Shown here: positions 54,671 to 62,006 of the stretch, piece after piece
How positions within the stretch are numbered: position 1 is the stretch's first letter
How the letters are laid out: each line of letters begins with the position of its first letter
From: Marinicella litoralis
GTDB taxonomy: Bacteria > Pseudomonadota > Gammaproteobacteria > Xanthomonadales > Marinicellaceae
Direction: 5' to 3'
DNA: 64,000 bases
NCBI RefSeq assembly: GCF_002591915.1
Contig: NZ_NIHB01000001.1
Span: 473,805 to 537,804 of the forward strand
The notes under the pieces: generated by a model
What the model saw: only the letters and a program-made list of their open reading frames with translations
What the model was told of the DNA's origin: nothing
The model's database searches: none
Translations under genes and position numbers: made by a program

Positions 54671-55573
54671 TTACTCACGGAATTGTTGGTAATAATCCAT
54701 TAACTGAGCCACGTCTTTTTTCATCCCTGGCAGGGTGTTTTGTAGGTACCAGGTTTGATAATCCAAACCACACACTTGAGGTTCATGAGCGCAGGTCAAA
54801 AGCATCAGGGCTGAGGTGCTGTCGCAAGTCACTCCCTGTTGGTATTGACAGGCAAGCAACATGATTGCCATGCTGCTGATTTGGTTGGCATATTGTTGGT
54901 CATGAGTTTTTAATATTTGTGTGATCGGAAATATTGTATTTCCACCCCAACTGTGCATCATTGCTGATAACATCATTACTGAACTGTTGCCCTCTTTGAT
55001 GGATTGAGTCAAGATTTGCATGCTCACTGTCTGGCGGTCAAATGCTGTCAAATGTGGGTTTTCGCTGGTTTTAATCAGCTGGCCCAATTGGCTTTGGGGT
55101 TCGAATAACGCATTGGTTTTTTTTCGGTCATTGATGGCAAATAAGGATGGGTATTTGGTATGGGACAGTTCACATTTTTGTTGGATGGATTGGGTTATTT
55201 TTTGTTGTTGTTGGTAGCTGGCATGTTTTATCAACTCATTGACAAATATGTTGGTTTTGCACATCTCTAGAGTCCACTCCATCGAATATATTTCGACAAA
55301 TGGATCATCACTGTAAAGTTGAAAATTGATTTCATCTAACACTTGTTGCTGTAATTCTGAAACAGTTGTATCGGTTGTAGTCACATCAACTTTAGCAGTG
55401 ATTGGGATTGATTCACGGGAGCTAACTGAGTTCTTTGTTGTGGGCACTGATCGAATTGAGTCTGGTGACAACCTTGTTGGTGCTGCGGTGGGTTCAGGTG
55501 CATGGAGGGCGGGATAACCCAAGCAAAGCAGCAGTAAAGCCAGCGACAACAAACCCAGTGCTTTAGTTTTCAT
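54671..55573 (-). CDS. Membrane-anchored hypothetical protein, 300 aa
   Basis: N-terminal signal or anchor (ALGLLSLALLLLCLGYPALHA), a Pro/Thr/Ser-rich spacer (about 25-70), then a helical domain. The C-terminal 60 residues hold a Cys pattern, ACQYQQGVTC, LLTCAHEPQVCGLD, and end DVAQLMDYYQQFRE. The end of the neighbouring protein (CELGANCG..CDLD...LLLEIMRGLYEN) resembles this, suggesting paralogy. No family known. Its start overlaps the upstream gene by 11 bases. Confidence 0.6.
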   Translation of the reverse strand: MKTKALGLLSLALLLLCLGYPALHAPEPTAAPTRLSPDSIRSVPTTKNSVSSRESIPITAKVDVTTTDTTVSELQQQVLDEINFQLYSDDPFVEIYSMEWTLEMCKTNIFVNELIKHASYQQQQKITQSIQQKCELSHTKYPSLFAINDRKKTNALFEPQSQLGQLIKTSENPHLTAFDRQTVSMQILTQSIKEGNSSVMMLSAMMHSWGGNTIFPITQILKTHDQQYANQISSMAIMLLACQYQQGVTCDSTSALMLLTCAHEPQVCGLDYQTWYLQNTLPGMKKDVAQLMDYYQQFRE

Positions 55574-56876
55574 ACAAACCTCGCATGATTTCTAACAGCA
55601 GTTGTACATCTGCCCATTGGTTTTCATTCATCCAATGGTCTCGATAAAATGTCAGCAAGTCCAAGTCACAGCTTGCGGCAGCTGGCAAGGCAGGGTTATC
55701 AAAACAATGGTATTTGATCCATTGGCTGTTCGGACCGCAGTTGGCGCCCAATTCACAAAGGTACAATTGGGTGGCGTTGTTAATCACCAGCGCAAATAAT
55801 TGAACATCGGTGATTCCTGTCAGTTGAAGTACCACATCACCTGGAGAAACGTACTCTATAAAGGGTTCTTTCAGCTGACCCTTGCCGATGTTTCGGTAGG
55901 GGTAATGGCCGATGTATTGTATGCGATTGGTTTGTTCTAAGGTCATTTGGGCTTCATAAAACACATCGGCATCCTTGCTGTTAAGGAAGTTGAACATTTG
56001 GTTGTTGACCAGGTTGAATTCATCTATGGCAGCTGTTCTGGTTTCCGGGTCAACCAATCTGAGTGAACTGAGCGTTTCTTTCAACACCGCTTCTTCGGCG
56101 AAAGTCTGGGCATATTCTTTTTTTAGCGCTGTTTGGTCTTCGGTGGATTGGATTAATTGGTTTATTTCACTTCGCCTTATCCGCAATGCTTGTAATTGTT
56201 CTCGAATCACTGCTATTTCTTGGGCGTTTTTGGTTTCATCGCCTTTGGATGCATCCAATACATTTTGAAAGCGCTGTTGCCATTCAGGCTTCAAGTTGAC
56301 CACTGAGGCAATGGCTTTCTCTTTGTTTGACTTAGGAGTTGCGGCAAGTAAATAAGCATTCAACTGTGCTTTGAGTCGGTTATGTTTATCCATTCCCTGC
56401 TTTTCTGTGATGTTGGAATGTGGCAGGTTTAACGACTCTAATCGATGCAATAAATCGATGCATTGATTGGCATGTTGTTGTATGGCTTTGCTTTGAGGAG
56501 CGGTGGCTTGAACGAATTGTTCTGGGTGTTGTTGGCTTAATGTTAAATTCAATCGAGCCACTGGGTCGTAGTTTGGTTGGTTTTGATAATCATAGATGAC
56601 TTGATGGCATTGAGCCCACAAACGGGTCATGCGATATATGTCCAGATAACTCAGTTCTTTGTCGGACATACTATCCTGAACCGTTACAAACTCGGGTTCC
56701 TCATTCAGTCGTTTGGGTCTATTTTTGGGTTTGGTGTGGGTGTTGGTTTTTAAGTTTTTATTGACATCAGCAGCTTGCTTGCTCAACACATTGGGGGTGT
56801 TTTGATGGTCCGAATTACCTTTGGGCCAAAACACCCACAACAAGATCAATAGCAGAATCAGTAAAATTTTTTTCAT
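55563..56876 (-). CDS. Membrane-anchored hypothetical protein, 437 aa
   Basis: Start at ATG 56876 (MKKILLILLLILLWVFWPKG), an N-terminal membrane helix. A longer frame would overlap the next gene. A basic spacer (THTKPKNRPKRLNEEPE), a helical region with a coiled coil (IAVIREQLQALRIRRSEINQLI), and a C-terminal Cys-containing segment (YLCELGANCGPN, AASCDLDLL) follow. No domain recognised. It overlaps the downstream gene by 11 bases, so the two are cotranscribed. Confidence 0.6.
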   Translation of the reverse strand: MKKILLILLLILLWVFWPKGNSDHQNTPNVLSKQAADVNKNLKTNTHTKPKNRPKRLNEEPEFVTVQDSMSDKELSYLDIYRMTRLWAQCHQVIYDYQNQPNYDPVARLNLTLSQQHPEQFVQATAPQSKAIQQHANQCIDLLHRLESLNLPHSNITEKQGMDKHNRLKAQLNAYLLAATPKSNKEKAIASVVNLKPEWQQRFQNVLDASKGDETKNAQEIAVIREQLQALRIRRSEINQLIQSTEDQTALKKEYAQTFAEEAVLKETLSSLRLVDPETRTAAIDEFNLVNNQMFNFLNSKDADVFYEAQMTLEQTNRIQYIGHYPYRNIGKGQLKEPFIEYVSPGDVVLQLTGITDVQLFALVINNATQLYLCELGANCGPNSQWIKYHCFDNPALPAAASCDLDLLTFYRDHWMNENQWADVQLLLEIMRGLYEN

Positions 56877-56905
56877 GTTATTGTTTTTGCTGACAAGCCT
56901 CTTAC

Positions 56906-57760
56906 TTACAATTGATAGTAACAATCTTCCGCTTTAAATTTTTGATGGACCAAGCCCAAATCTTTTAAAGTGGCAGTGGTTTCGGCCACCACATCTTGTT
57001 TTAGTTCAATTTGCTTGCACCACTTGGTGTAGGACAACCAGGCTGCTACATCTTCTGGCTGTAAATCAAATTGCTTGGCAATGATGTCGATTCGATTGGT
57101 GTTGTGGTAAAGCTGCTGCGCTTGTTTGAAAGTTTCTTCCAGCAGTTTTTTGACTTTATCAGCATGTAAGGTCAAGGTTTGGTGGCTGGCGACTACTACA
57201 AAACAAGACCAAGGCGTCGGGCATTCACCAATGCGTCTGAATTCGCCACTGTCAACATAGGGTTTGGTGGTGAATTTTTCCCAAAAGAACACATCGGCCT
57301 GGTCTTCTCTGAAGGCCATGCGGGCGCCATCCAAGTTATTGATAACGCGAAATTGTAATTTGTGCACTGGCCAGTTTTCTTGTCGAGCGTGTACATAGGG
57401 CATCAAATGAGAACCTGAACCATAGCGACTGATGGCATAACGATGGTGGTAAATTTCATTGACATCGGTGATGTCAGAATCAGCTGGCACATGGATGCCC
57501 CAAATAATCGGAGAGTCGGTATAAAAAGACACGATTTTATAATTGGCACTGCGGGATATGCCTGAAATGGCACCTTCAGTCAGCAGGATGGCCACATCCA
57601 ATTCATCGTTTTTGATGGCTTGTATCATGCCACCTGTGCCTTCATAGAAGTCGGTCCATTCGGGCTTGATGCCCTGCGCTTGCAAGGCGCCGGATTGACG
57701 CGCCAAATGCCATGGTAGGTTGTAGTGTTCTGGTACGCCGCCAATTCTGAGTCTGATCAT
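56906..57760 (-). CDS. Type 2 periplasmic-binding-fold protein, NMT1/Ca3427-like
   Basis: 284 residues from ATG 57760 (MIRLRIGGVPEHYN); a GTG four codons upstream is possible. No signal peptide. Opening RIGGVPEHYNLPWHLARQSGALQAQGI, then EGTGGMIQAIKNDELDVAILLTEGAI, YGSGSHLMPYVHA and DGARMAFREDQADVFFWEKFTTKP fit the SsuA/NMT1 superfamily, in particular the Ca3427-like group. No ABC permease or ATPase genes are adjacent. It may act in the cytosol as a thiamine-precursor-like enzyme or a binder; the role is unknown. Confidence 0.7.
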   Translation of the reverse strand: MIRLRIGGVPEHYNLPWHLARQSGALQAQGIKPEWTDFYEGTGGMIQAIKNDELDVAILLTEGAISGISRSANYKIVSFYTDSPIIWGIHVPADSDITDVNEIYHHRYAISRYGSGSHLMPYVHARQENWPVHKLQFRVINNLDGARMAFREDQADVFFWEKFTTKPYVDSGEFRRIGECPTPWSCFVVVASHQTLTLHADKVKKLLEETFKQAQQLYHNTNRIDIIAKQFDLQPEDVAAWLSYTKWCKQIELKQDVVAETTATLKDLGLVHQKFKAEDCYYQL

Positions 57761-57870: not shown

Positions 57871-58626
57871 ATGAAATGGTTGTTGTGTTTTTTGTTACTG
57901 GGTTTTTCTGCAGTTAATGCAGAGGTGAAGTTGATGGTGTTGGGCGGTCAACATACACCGGTTAAGTTTGTGGCATTGCCTTTTTCTTATCAGGGATCAG
58001 GCTTGAGTCCGGCAGTGGCGGTTGAAGACCTTATTGTTCAAGCTTTATCGAGCACAGGCTTGTTCAGCATGCCCTATCGCTACGATGTACCAGCCAACAC
58101 CAACAACATGATGGCCTGGCAATTCAATGGCATACGCTATGTCTTACAAGGGCAGTTGATTGAAGCGGACAAGATGCTGACTTTGCGTTTGTCTATTGAT
58201 GATACTTTGGGTTTGCAACCGACCATCAGTAGGGTGATTTTGAACCCAGAACAGTTGACCTTGAGCAGTCAAATGTTTGCTGACCAAGTTTACCGCAGTT
58301 TGTTTTATGCCACTTTCACCAACGACACGGAAAAACAATATTTAGCCAATGAAAACCCTGTTTTGACGCGGTATTTGAACCAATTGGTCATGACTTTCAA
58401 AGCGGCTTGGGTCAATGACCAAGGCAAAGGCAGCTGTACCGTTGATATCCAACAAATGCCTGGTGGGGTGCCTTTCAAAAGTGAATTAAACGAAGACTGT
58501 TTTTTAGACAGGGCTTTGCCCAATGAAATTCAGCAAGCACTCGAGTCCATTGAAGTTTTGCCATATGAAAATTACCAAACGGTGTTTGAGCGAAACCTAA
58601 AAATTGAGTTCATCAGTCTGAATTAA
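57871..58626 (+). CDS. TolB N-terminal/TolA C-terminal fusion-like periplasmic protein
   Basis: 251 residues. Signal peptide 1-17 (LLLGFSAVNA). Residues about 18-150 align in pattern with the TolB N-terminal domain: AEVKLMVLGG, VKFVALPFSYQGSGLSP, DLIVQALSSTGLFSM, GIRYVLQGQL. Residues about 168-251 resemble the TolA C-terminal domain: TFKAAWVND, CTVDIQQMPGGVPF (Cys189), EDCFLDRALP (Cys210), LPYENYQTVFERNLKIEF. No beta-propeller is present. In the Tol system these two domains bind each other, so one polypeptide would hold both partners. Ends six bases from the convergent cytochrome gene. Confidence 0.72.
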   Translation: MKWLLCFLLLGFSAVNAEVKLMVLGGQHTPVKFVALPFSYQGSGLSPAVAVEDLIVQALSSTGLFSMPYRYDVPANTNNMMAWQFNGIRYVLQGQLIEADKMLTLRLSIDDTLGLQPTISRVILNPEQLTLSSQMFADQVYRSLFYATFTNDTEKQYLANENPVLTRYLNQLVMTFKAAWVNDQGKGSCTVDIQQMPGGVPFKSELNEDCFLDRALPNEIQQALESIEVLPYENYQTVFERNLKIEFISLN

Positions 58627-58632
58627 AATGCA

Positions 58633-60111
58633 TTAATGAATGCTGTCTGAGTTCGCATTGCGTTGCAGGTGAAGATCGGTATCGATCAAATGATCATCCA
58701 TACCCCAGTCCCTTAACTGTTTTATAATCCAATCCTGTGATTGGTCTTGGTGACAGTCATGGCAAGCATTGGGCGAATTTTCAACACCTAATTTCTTAGA
58801 CAACAAGGGGTTTGGAATGGATCCCATGTTGTGAGTTCGAACAAGATGGGTCACACCTGATACTTGATTTAACATGTTTTTCGGCATGTGACAGTCATAA
58901 CAAAACGAACCTTTTTTGCCCGCTGTGTGGTTGGTGTGTGCAGCTAAATTTTCTTCAATGTTTTGGTGGCAACTTAAACAAAATTCATTACTTTGTTCAG
59001 TGGCTCGGAGCAAGCCAGTGCTGGCTGGTTTTTTGTTGTTGTGTGGGTCATGACAGGTGTAACAGCGCATGTCTGTGGCTTGGTAATGGCTTGAATCAGC
59101 AAAAGAACGAAACATTGTACCCAAGCCCTTGGGTCGTCCATCCGGCCACACTTCAATGGTCGGTACGGTTCGGCCAGGTTCCAAGGGTGCTTCGGTAAAG
59201 TAGGCAGACAAGTCGTTCAACTGACCGTGCTGATCGAAACCCGGTTTATAATTTCGATACAGGGGCTGTCGTTTTCTGAAGATGTCAGCGCCATGACATC
59301 TGGCGCAGACGCTCAAGGCAAAGCCTTGTTCTTGTTTGCCTGCATTGATGATAAATGGTGCTGTCTTATTGAGTAAGTTTTGGTCTAGCCATGACGCCAT
59401 TCGGTTGATTGGGTGGCCTTGCATGTAATCAACATGTTGACTGCCTGGGCCATGACAAACTTCGCAACCCACACCAATTTCAGTCCACTGTACATCGGCA
59501 ACCGTGTGTGCATTGTCTTTACTGATTTCTTGTAAATTGGTGGTGTGACACCGTGCACAATATAAATTCCAAGCAGAATTCATTGGTTTCATTTGTTCCC
59601 ATAAATCATGCACAGACTGAGGCGATTGTTCTTGTTCATTCCAATAGGCAAAAAAGGATTGTCTGGGCACTGACCATTGAATCGGCAAGCGCCGCAACAC
59701 CCCGCCGACTTCTTGTGTCAGGTAGGTTTGTCGGTATTGGTAACCAATGACCTTATCAATTTTAAATTCAGTGAAAGCATTGCTGCCTTGATCACGCAAA
59801 GCCATGAAATATTCACCTTGTCTCTGGTACATTTTGGCAACGGGTGGTGCATTGGAGTCTTCAATATTTTGTTGAGGTAGGTAATATTGACCTGATGAAA
59901 AATTCCCCACGATGGTATTTTCTTTGGGTTCATGTGCGATGTTGTGATGTGGTGAAATTTTCCAGGCGTCGTAATTAATCCAATGACAATCACCACAAAC
60001 TTGGCTGCCCACAAAATCAGCATGAAACACTTCAGGTGCTGGTTCACGCAACCAAAAAATACCCATAATAATTAACAGTACAAAAGCAACCAAAAGGGCC
60101 AGGTATTTCAT
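58633..60111 (-). CDS. Octaheme c-type cytochrome, membrane-anchored
   Basis: 492 residues: a single N-terminal helix (LALLVAFVLLIIMGIFW) then eight CxxCH heme-binding motifs: CGDCH, CARCH, CEVCH, CARCH, CYTCH, CLSCH, CYDCH and CHDCH. Additional histidines supply distal ligands. Spacing and the text 'GSQVCGDCH...W..SPH' and 'CYTCHDPHNNKK' fit multiheme cytochromes of the doubled-CXXCH/cytochrome c nitrite reductase-like group. It would carry electrons in the periplasm; the reaction is unknown. The stop of the DedA-type gene upstream overlaps its start (ATGA). Confidence 0.9.
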   Translation of the reverse strand: MKYLALLVAFVLLIIMGIFWLREPAPEVFHADFVGSQVCGDCHWINYDAWKISPHHNIAHEPKENTIVGNFSSGQYYLPQQNIEDSNAPPVAKMYQRQGEYFMALRDQGSNAFTEFKIDKVIGYQYRQTYLTQEVGGVLRRLPIQWSVPRQSFFAYWNEQEQSPQSVHDLWEQMKPMNSAWNLYCARCHTTNLQEISKDNAHTVADVQWTEIGVGCEVCHGPGSQHVDYMQGHPINRMASWLDQNLLNKTAPFIINAGKQEQGFALSVCARCHGADIFRKRQPLYRNYKPGFDQHGQLNDLSAYFTEAPLEPGRTVPTIEVWPDGRPKGLGTMFRSFADSSHYQATDMRCYTCHDPHNNKKPASTGLLRATEQSNEFCLSCHQNIEENLAAHTNHTAGKKGSFCYDCHMPKNMLNQVSGVTHLVRTHNMGSIPNPLLSKKLGVENSPNACHDCHQDQSQDWIIKQLRDWGMDDHLIDTDLHLQRNANSDSIH

Positions 60112-62006
60112 TTTCTCTTTTTGATGATGGTCAAGGTTTCATCCGGCAAGAAATCGGTAATGAACAAGCTTGATTTGAGGGCAGCCAACAGTACGCTTTT
60201 GTCTTCGGCATTGTTCACGTATCCCCAATGATTGAACAGGTACAAATCGGTGTCTTTCTGATGTTCGGTTAAGGTGCCGCGCCAGTGGTCTTCAGAGGGA
60301 ATGGTTCGGTCTTTCCAGACCCGCAACACGGTCAGTTTTTCACCAACCACAGTCCCCATCAACAAGCGTTCGATTTCACCTTGGTGGACATATGAAAATA
60401 AGGGGATGTCAGCTGCATCAGGCTCCACCAACATGGCTTGATATACGTTGCCCCAAGTTCTGGGTGTAAAGCTTTGCCAACCTGCTTGATTCAACTGTTG
60501 TTCCAAGGACGGTAAGTCGGATTGGATGATGATATCCAGGGCTTGTTCACCGGTATTGGCCCAGCCAGTGGTTTTCTCGGTATTTTGTTGGTTCAGCCAT
60601 TCTGGTTTCAATGCGAGGGTGTTGTTAGAAAACAGGAACCATGCAACAAAAGGCATCAACAACACGGTGGTGATGTATGTGATTTTAACCGGCAGGCCAA
60701 GGAATTGTTTGCGACTGCGTGTGCGAAAGGCAATACCGATAACCAAGGCCCAAATGCTGGCAATCAAAATCGATAACAAGACCATGGCCAAATTCATTTT
60801 GAAGAAAAACAAAGTCGAGAAGGCGAATAACAAGATCAATACACCCGCAAAAACATAAGGCCAGCTGCGCCATTTTATGGGAAAGGCGCCGGCCACCAAA
60901 ATACCCCAGAAACAGGCCAAGGCGGTGAACCAAAATACATGGTGGTCTGCAAAAAAGTGCCATTGATCATGGCCCACCCTGCAAATCAAGACAGAAAAAA
61001 TATAGGCACTGAGTGAAACCAATAACCAGTGATTTAAAACGATCGTCATGCGTCGGTAAAAAAACCAAGCTGCAACAGTCAGGGTGGTGATCAAGAGACT
61101 GAGGTCGTGTCCAAGAAACAGCAGCCATTTCATGGGCAACACCGTCCATGGATTGTGAAAGGTGAAAAAGAAGGATTCGGAAGCCTGGTTCCAGCGCAAC
61201 AAGGTGGCGTTGATGGCGATGAACCAAATGGCTGCGACCAAAAACACCAACAACAAAACAGCCAACATGGCAAGTGAACCTTTTTCAGGTTGTCTGGGGT
61301 CAACCAAGCCTGAAGTTAATCGGCCCAATTTGGGGTGTTTTTGGGTCCAAGTCAGCAGACCACTGAGCCAGTGATATGCCTTGGGGACCCATAATTTGTA
61401 GACCAAATTTATCAACCAATAAACCACCCACACCGAAACCACCAAAACCAACACCAAGACGGACATTTTGACGGCCACCTTGGCCATGGTTTCCATCGCA
61501 GAACCAAACAACATACCGGGTAATAAATAAAACGGCGCCCACAGAATCGATGCCACCAAGCTGATGACAATGTAGCGCTTAACGTTCATTCCCATCATGC
61601 CAGCAATGGCAGGAATGATGGGCCTGACTGGGCCGACGAAACGCCCAATAAAGACACTGACACCACCGTATTTTTGGAAAAAAGCTTGGCCTTTCTCAAT
61701 CAATTCCGGAAATTTGTATATGGGCCATACCTTCAATAAGTTTTGTTTGTATTTATGACCAATCCAAAATGAAATGCCGTCGCCTAAAAAGCCGCCCATT
61801 GAAGCCCATAGCCAAGCCGTGTAAAAGTCCAAAACCCCCAAGCCAATGAGGGCACCCAAACTGACCAAAAAAGCCGCACCAGGGAAGATGATCCCAACCA
61901 ACAACAATGATTCGGTAAAGGCGAATAAGAAAATCAGAATCCCAGTCCAGTTGGGATTCGCTTGAATCCAGTCGTAAATGTCTTTGACCCAACCGGTAGG
62001 TTCCAT
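60108..62006 (-). CDS. DedA (VTT) membrane protein fused to PAP2-like and LssY C-terminal domains
   Basis: 632 residues. DedA part 1-210: 'AFTESLLLVGIIFPGAAFLVSLGAL', ASMGGFLGDGISFWIGHK, and GRFVGPVRPIIPAIAGMMGM, the conserved VTT block. Middle part with several helices resembles a PAP2 phosphatase fold, but the canonical histidine/arginine motifs are not evident. C-terminal part about 490-632 is LssY-C-like (GWANTGEQALDIIIQ, GWQSFTPRTWGN). DedA proteins flip lipid carriers. Upstream of and overlapping the octaheme cytochrome gene. Confidence 0.85.
   Translation of the reverse strand: MEPTGWVKDIYDWIQANPNWTGILIFLFAFTESLLLVGIIFPGAAFLVSLGALIGLGVLDFYTAWLWASMGGFLGDGISFWIGHKYKQNLLKVWPIYKFPELIEKGQAFFQKYGGVSVFIGRFVGPVRPIIPAIAGMMGMNVKRYIVISLVASILWAPFYLLPGMLFGSAMETMAKVAVKMSVLVLVLVVSVWVVYWLINLVYKLWVPKAYHWLSGLLTWTQKHPKLGRLTSGLVDPRQPEKGSLAMLAVLLLVFLVAAIWFIAINATLLRWNQASESFFFTFHNPWTVLPMKWLLFLGHDLSLLITTLTVAAWFFYRRMTIVLNHWLLVSLSAYIFSVLICRVGHDQWHFFADHHVFWFTALACFWGILVAGAFPIKWRSWPYVFAGVLILLFAFSTLFFFKMNLAMVLLSILIASIWALVIGIAFRTRSRKQFLGLPVKITYITTVLLMPFVAWFLFSNNTLALKPEWLNQQNTEKTTGWANTGEQALDIIIQSDLPSLEQQLNQAGWQSFTPRTWGNVYQAMLVEPDAADIPLFSYVHQGEIERLLMGTVVGEKLTVLRVWKDRTIPSEDHWRGTLTEHQKDTDLYLFNHWGYVNNAEDKSVLLAALKSSLFITDFLPDETLTIIKKRK

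Follow-up and report, generated by a model that had tools for sequence, protein, structure and literature searches.

The window analysed here is a stretch of 64,000 nucleotides from Marinicella litoralis (contig NZ_NIHB01000001.1, positions 473,805 to 537,804). At 57871..58626 on the plus strand, which also carries all parts of the gene described below, it contains a gene for a protein of 251 amino acids in which, according to Pfam, profile searches and hhalign, a TolB domain 1 is fused to a TolA domain III. From the N terminus on, the protein consists of a stretch resembling a signal peptide, the TolA box and domain 1 of TolB, and finally TolA domain III. The signal-peptide-like segment (residues 1-17, 57871..57921), recognised by eye, ends in ...VNA, and no lipobox was seen at that site. 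It is followed by a TolA-box-like strand (residues 18-27, 57922..57951), assigned from the alignment with E. coli TolB, the conservation among 18 family members and the AlphaFold model. The alpha/beta domain corresponding to TolB domain 1 (residues 30-151, 57958..58323) was delimited by Pfam, hhalign and Foldseek, and TolA domain III (residues 160-251, 58348..58623) by the match to the TolA of the same genome, by profiles and by hhalign. The two TolA-III cysteines named in the original prediction, Cys189 (58435..58437) and Cys210 (58498..58500), are indeed invariant in 18/18 fusions. The last strand of the protein (residues 242-249, 58594..58617), defined by DSSP of the model, is taken to correspond to beta3 of TolA.

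In all 18 fusions, the presumed cleavage site is immediately followed by a hydrophobic strand and then Gly25, which is invariant. A phmmer comparison, in which the whole match is weak (E 0.02), aligns the presumed mature start of the fusion with the TolA box that opens mature E. coli TolB. The fusion protein is probably soluble and periplasmic. Only the signal-peptide-like segment precedes domain 1, and inspection by eye revealed neither a membrane helix of the TolA type, which would carry the motor-binding motif, nor a stalk. A beta-propeller is likewise missing, as the chain runs on into TolA-III and gives no NCBIfam match at E 0.1; for comparison, the TolB of the same genome reaches 479.8 bits for TIGR02800 and 133.3 bits for the PD40 propeller repeats. 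The absence of both propeller and stalk, noted at the outset from the sequence, thus holds. Since the TolB propeller is the part from which Pal is released, the fusion has no known Pal site. The surroundings of the gene yielded no promoter- or terminator-like sites, a lower count than shuffled sequences give, though this result says little.

In the C-terminal half, residues 163-246 match the same genome's TolA (E 6.1e-6). When alignment was compared with alignment in hhalign, this half and TolA-C (33 rows from relatives) gave 99.1% (E 1.3e-18), with a maximum of 1.7% for 30 column shuffles of the same half. Against 3,618 decoys, which were shuffled or reversed sequences, the TolA-C profile ranks 18/18 fusions higher by a wide margin (lowest fusion 31.6 bits, best decoy 6.7). 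In Pfam, TonB_2 is weakly matched by 4/18 fusions. Among solved structures, a sequence query with the C half returned no TolA, and chains of TolA or TonB are absent among the best 50 Foldseek rows for the whole fusion model.

For the N-terminal half, Pfam TolB_N (PF04052) matches residues 21-112 with 20.2 bits, below the Pfam cut-off of 22.4, and is matched by each of the 18 orthologues at E <= 1 (best 7.7e-7). As the CsgG protein of the same genome slightly outscores the fusion for TolB_N (21.3 bits), Pfam alone is insufficient here, and orthologues, decoys and profile comparison were used. The hhalign comparison of the N half with TolB domain 1 (24 rows from relatives), again alignment against alignment, yielded 96.6% (E 5.2e-10), compared to at most 2.8% for 30 column shuffles and to 0.4% and 0.1% for the crossed halves. 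With the TolB domain 1 profile all 18 fusions rank above the 3,618 decoys, by a thin margin (lowest fusion 10.2 bits, best decoy 9.7). A profile of the whole family, run against solved structures, matched TolB with a best E-value of 1.3e-4, an unrelated Bcl-2-like chain appearing at 0.0083. The similarity to TolB-N and TolA-C is thus significant for both halves, and the proposed union of the two domains in a single protein is confirmed.

That the N half might be CsgG was tested and rejected. The CsgG of the same genome scores 182.9 bits for the CsgG family in Pfam, for which the fusion shows no match, and the profile of the N half reaches only 0.3% against this single CsgG sequence in hhalign, versus 67.9% (E 4.8e-5, 125 columns) against domain 1 of the single same-genome TolB sequence. 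The TolB profile itself gives 30.7% against the same CsgG; on sequence comparison, TolB and CsgG are distantly alike. In a Foldseek search with an AlphaFold model of residues 1-151, the six best matches are TolB structures, in line with the fold expected for this half; PelC comes next, and GNA1162, FlgT and LpoB lie lower. For the whole model the five best matches are TolB. The position aligned by phmmer with His146 of E. coli TolB, a residue of the Pal-release network, holds a His in 0/18 fusions, that of Asp150, from the same pull-release network, an Asp in 14/18, and Thr165 falls past the aligned domain 1. The TolB of the same genome keeps both His and Asp at the His146 and Asp150 positions of the alignment.

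AlphaFold, supplied with an alignment of 18 rows, modelled the full fusion with a pLDDT of 86.3 and a pTM of 0.83. The model contains a strand at residues 20-24, with a mean pLDDT of 90 for the block 21-30, and from residue 163 on it follows the order helix-strand-strand-helix-helix-strand. When residues 1-151 were modelled alone (pLDDT 87.7, pTM 0.76), the elements from residue 31 on remained unchanged, the strand 20-24 was gone with single-residue bridges present at 26 and 29, the pLDDT of residues 20-22 was below 50 and the mean of block 21-30 was 63. Since the strand is lost without the TolA half, the most economical assumption is that it pairs with that half when the whole chain is modelled. 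The TolA box probably docks on the fusion's own TolA-III, the strand partner being deduced from these two models. The idea of a self-contained module, one of the functions initially suggested, gains support from the dependence of the predicted TolA-box strand on the TolA half.

PMC7066135 describes the known TolA-TolB contact as a parallel strand which TolB residues 22-34 add to TolA-III. By analogy with this complex, the last strand of the fusion (residues 242-249) may be the partner of the TolA box. According to PMC4339652, TolB and colicin N each add a strand at beta3 of TolA, and substituting proline at two sites within beta3 of the E. coli protein prevents TolB from binding. At residues 241-249, proline occurs in 0/18 fusions.

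An ordinary Tol-Pal system is present in the same genome. Its tolQ, tolR, tolA and tolB genes are clustered (L003 6034-9226; tolQ and tolR named by eye), with TolA reaching 69.3 bits for TIGR02794 and TolB the TIGR02800 score given above, and a Pal with 142 bits for TIGR02802 is encoded elsewhere. Given that ordinary tolQRAB and Pal are present, the fusion does not replace them. The original prediction had raised the question of normal tolA and tolB genes alongside the same architecture; they accompany it in 16/18 genus members, which show TolB at E <1e-20 and a TolA-III match besides the fusion's own. For the other two members (G006 and G014), the assemblies comprise 300 and 460 contigs and do not demonstrate absence of the genes. 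The fusion gene and tolQRAB share one contig of 1.49 Mb, on which the fusion gene stands outside the tol operon, and no tol genes were seen beside it in 17 loci, with gene starts judged by eye. As a separate observation on the operon (L003:6034-7320, minus strand, and downstream flank; L068:1456-2025, minus strand), no pal match (E 1e-10) occurs in the 1.1 to 6.0 kb covered downstream of tolB in 15/15 genus loci; in G060, the sole other locus with more than 1 kb covered downstream of tolB, pal is present there. In the source genome, the same contig carries the Pal gene at a distance of about 350 kb.

Full-length orthologues are encoded in 18/18 Marinicella genomes, each as an open frame of about 250 amino acids, with identity down to 35% and 38 invariant columns. 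The order sample comprised 398 genomes, i.e. the 18 of the genus and 380 others; among the matches listed, which may miss a strongly diverged fusion with a poor E-value, no whole-protein match stems from these 380. Sorted by E-value, the first listed match after the 18 has an E of 5.7e-14 and covers residues 166-249 only. In the class sample of 369 genomes, which shares at least 4 genomes with the order sample, only the source genome passes at E 1e-18, a threshold at which a very divergent fusion would be missed, leaving the 368 others without a match. A scan of genome contigs confirmed 5 loci, corresponding to five genus members, and in a plasmid collection 7 Escherichia records appeared at E 0.3, of which 4 are annotated as tolB and none covers 80% of the query. 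The viral contigs scanned yielded no confirmed relative and PHROGs no match; taken with the location on the tolQRAB contig and the retention in 18/18 genomes, this leaves the suggested role as a phage-type accessory unsupported.

Downstream of the fusion, outside it and relevant as context, a convergent gene (60108..62006, minus strand) encodes a DedA/UptA-like protein that contains a VTT domain and also matches LssY_C weakly. In 13/17 orthologous loci this gene is next or next but one to the fusion, likewise convergent, and in the other 4 the contig end comes first. The upstream side of the fusion gene varies among the 17 loci. Also convergent with the fusion is a multi-haem cytochrome-like gene (58633-60111, minus strand), which lies between the fusion and the VTT gene in 6 of the 17 loci, is truncated where the contig ends in 3, absent from 7 and not visible in 1. 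A neighbouring pair of proteins (55563-56924 and 54671-55573, minus strand) is devoid of a confident Pfam match and recurs in some of the orthologous loci; it is doubled in G005 and G013.

Both halves have changed faster than their TolB and TolA counterparts. In the 15 genomes with all parts (105 non-independent pairs), mean identity is 0.53 for the N half versus 0.69 for TolB domain 1, and 0.46 for the C half versus 0.75 for TolA-III, i.e. distance ratios of about 1.75 and 2.9. In the trees, each fusion half forms one group with 100/100 support on a stem that is long, and long-branch warnings apply to both trees. The best tree separates Marinicella TolB from the fusion, and a tree joining them is not rejected (p-AU 0.298). 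In the fusion the TolB part comes first and the TolA part second, opposite to the gene order tolA-tolB, an arrangement which, we infer, tandem duplication combined with loss of internal sequence would yield.

We tentatively favour the view, at somewhat less than an even chance, that the fusion is a self-closed paralogue which modulates the TolA-TolB handshake by carrying both contact halves in one chain. In the resting monomer, as modelled, the N-terminal TolA box would form an extra strand on the protein's own TolA-III sheet, and both binding surfaces would be closed. Once opened, the fusion's TolA box could be taken by the TolA of the TolQRA motor, and/or its TolA-III could take the TolA box of TolB. 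The fusion would thereby buffer or time the TolA-TolB handshake, itself neither moving Pal nor using the proton motive force. The location outside the tol operon and the Asp150 aligned in 14/18 fusions would speak against a Tol regulator, and the faster change of both halves fits a new partner as well as it fits such a regulator. The wider proposal, that the genus as a whole possesses a self-complementary Tol protein, shut by self-docking and opened by strand exchange with TolA or TolB so as to tune outer-membrane constriction, we regard as possible, though clearly less likely than not. A search of the open-access literature found no report of such a regulatory layer of Tol-Pal or of the TolB-D1/TolA-III architecture.

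The main rival is a neofunctionalised envelope adaptor apart from Tol-Pal, whose target could be, for instance, a peptidoglycan synthase or an export complex, and in which the TolB-D1-like half would work in the manner of PelC, GNA1162, FlgT or LpoB, which have a similar fold, and the TolA-III half would only close or regulate it. We consider this a serious possibility, though still well short of probable. These four families follow TolB in the Foldseek search with the N half, and both the faster change compared to TolA and TolB and the placement of the gene, away from the tol operon and close to a conserved VTT/UptA-like protein, would fit an adaptor. On the other hand, all six top-ranked structures in that search are TolB, the same-genome CsgG was rejected by profile, and the TolA-box pattern is kept in 18/18 fusions; a TolA box is not known in the PelC, GNA1162, FlgT and LpoB families.

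Less probable still is a constitutively open decoy or inhibitor which ties up TolA or TolB, perhaps to keep out phages or colicin-like agents that enter via TolA-III. Its appeal is that a single TolA site is contested by TolB, colicin N and phage g3p (PMC4339652), and that a soluble TolA-III without the motor could compete as well; the predicted self-docking would, however, hide both surfaces, and the occurrence in 18/18 genomes with a shared neighbour in 13/17 loci is unlike that of a patchy defence gene. A linear or domain-swapped assembly, in which the TolA box of one copy sits on the TolA-III of the next to give a periplasmic chain, would make use of complementary surfaces at opposite ends of the sequence and of strand addition as a known contact, but the monomer model already appears to satisfy this contact, and we hold such a chain to be very improbable. 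The long stems and fast change could also be expected of a decaying gene fragment or annotation accident, an explanation which becomes barely tenable in view of the full-length open frame and the invariant columns maintained across the genus.

Compared to TolB (PF04052 plus propeller, TIGR02800), the fusion is likewise presumed to be secreted and shares the N-terminal TolA box and the domain 1 fold, but it carries TolA-III instead of the propeller, lacks the His146 equivalent and is encoded outside the tol operon. With TolA (TIGR02794) it has in common domain III, the two cysteines and the last edge strand, and it differs in the missing membrane helix and stalk and in that the TolB part precedes the TolA part. 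For PelC/GNA1162/LpoB-like lipoproteins, the Foldseek hits of the N half rank below TolB; for CsgG a sequence match is missing. In the TolA-TolB peptide complex 6S3W, as set out in PMC7066135, the TolA box is likewise added as a strand to TolA-III; there the contact joins two separate molecules with low affinity, about 40 uM in the case of E. coli, whereas that of the fusion is predicted to lie within one chain. The fusion would thus hold a weak, force-bearing strand-addition contact tethered within one small protein. If the self-docking is true, it offers a ready model in which to measure TolA-TolB strand exchange, and should TolA or TolB prove to be its target, outer-membrane constriction would have a new regulator, one which competes for the same strand.

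Other fusions of Tol-Pal parts in one chain are known, namely TolB-Pal and PorE (CpoB-TolB-Pal), which are treated in PMC12204202. As described there, PorE combines CpoB, TolB, carboxypeptidase and Pal parts; the Marinicella fusion instead contains both sides of the TolA-TolB contact and no Pal domain. In two genomes, G012 of the genus and G043 of the order, a stand-alone TolA-III/TonB_2 gene lies between tolA and tolB (L051:4390-4797, minus strand, and L023:1402-1770, plus strand; 135 or 122 amino acids). Judged by eye, the first of these proteins has a lipoprotein-like start and the second a signal-peptide-like one, and a solitary TolA-III of this kind next to tolB may represent another variant of the Tol system.
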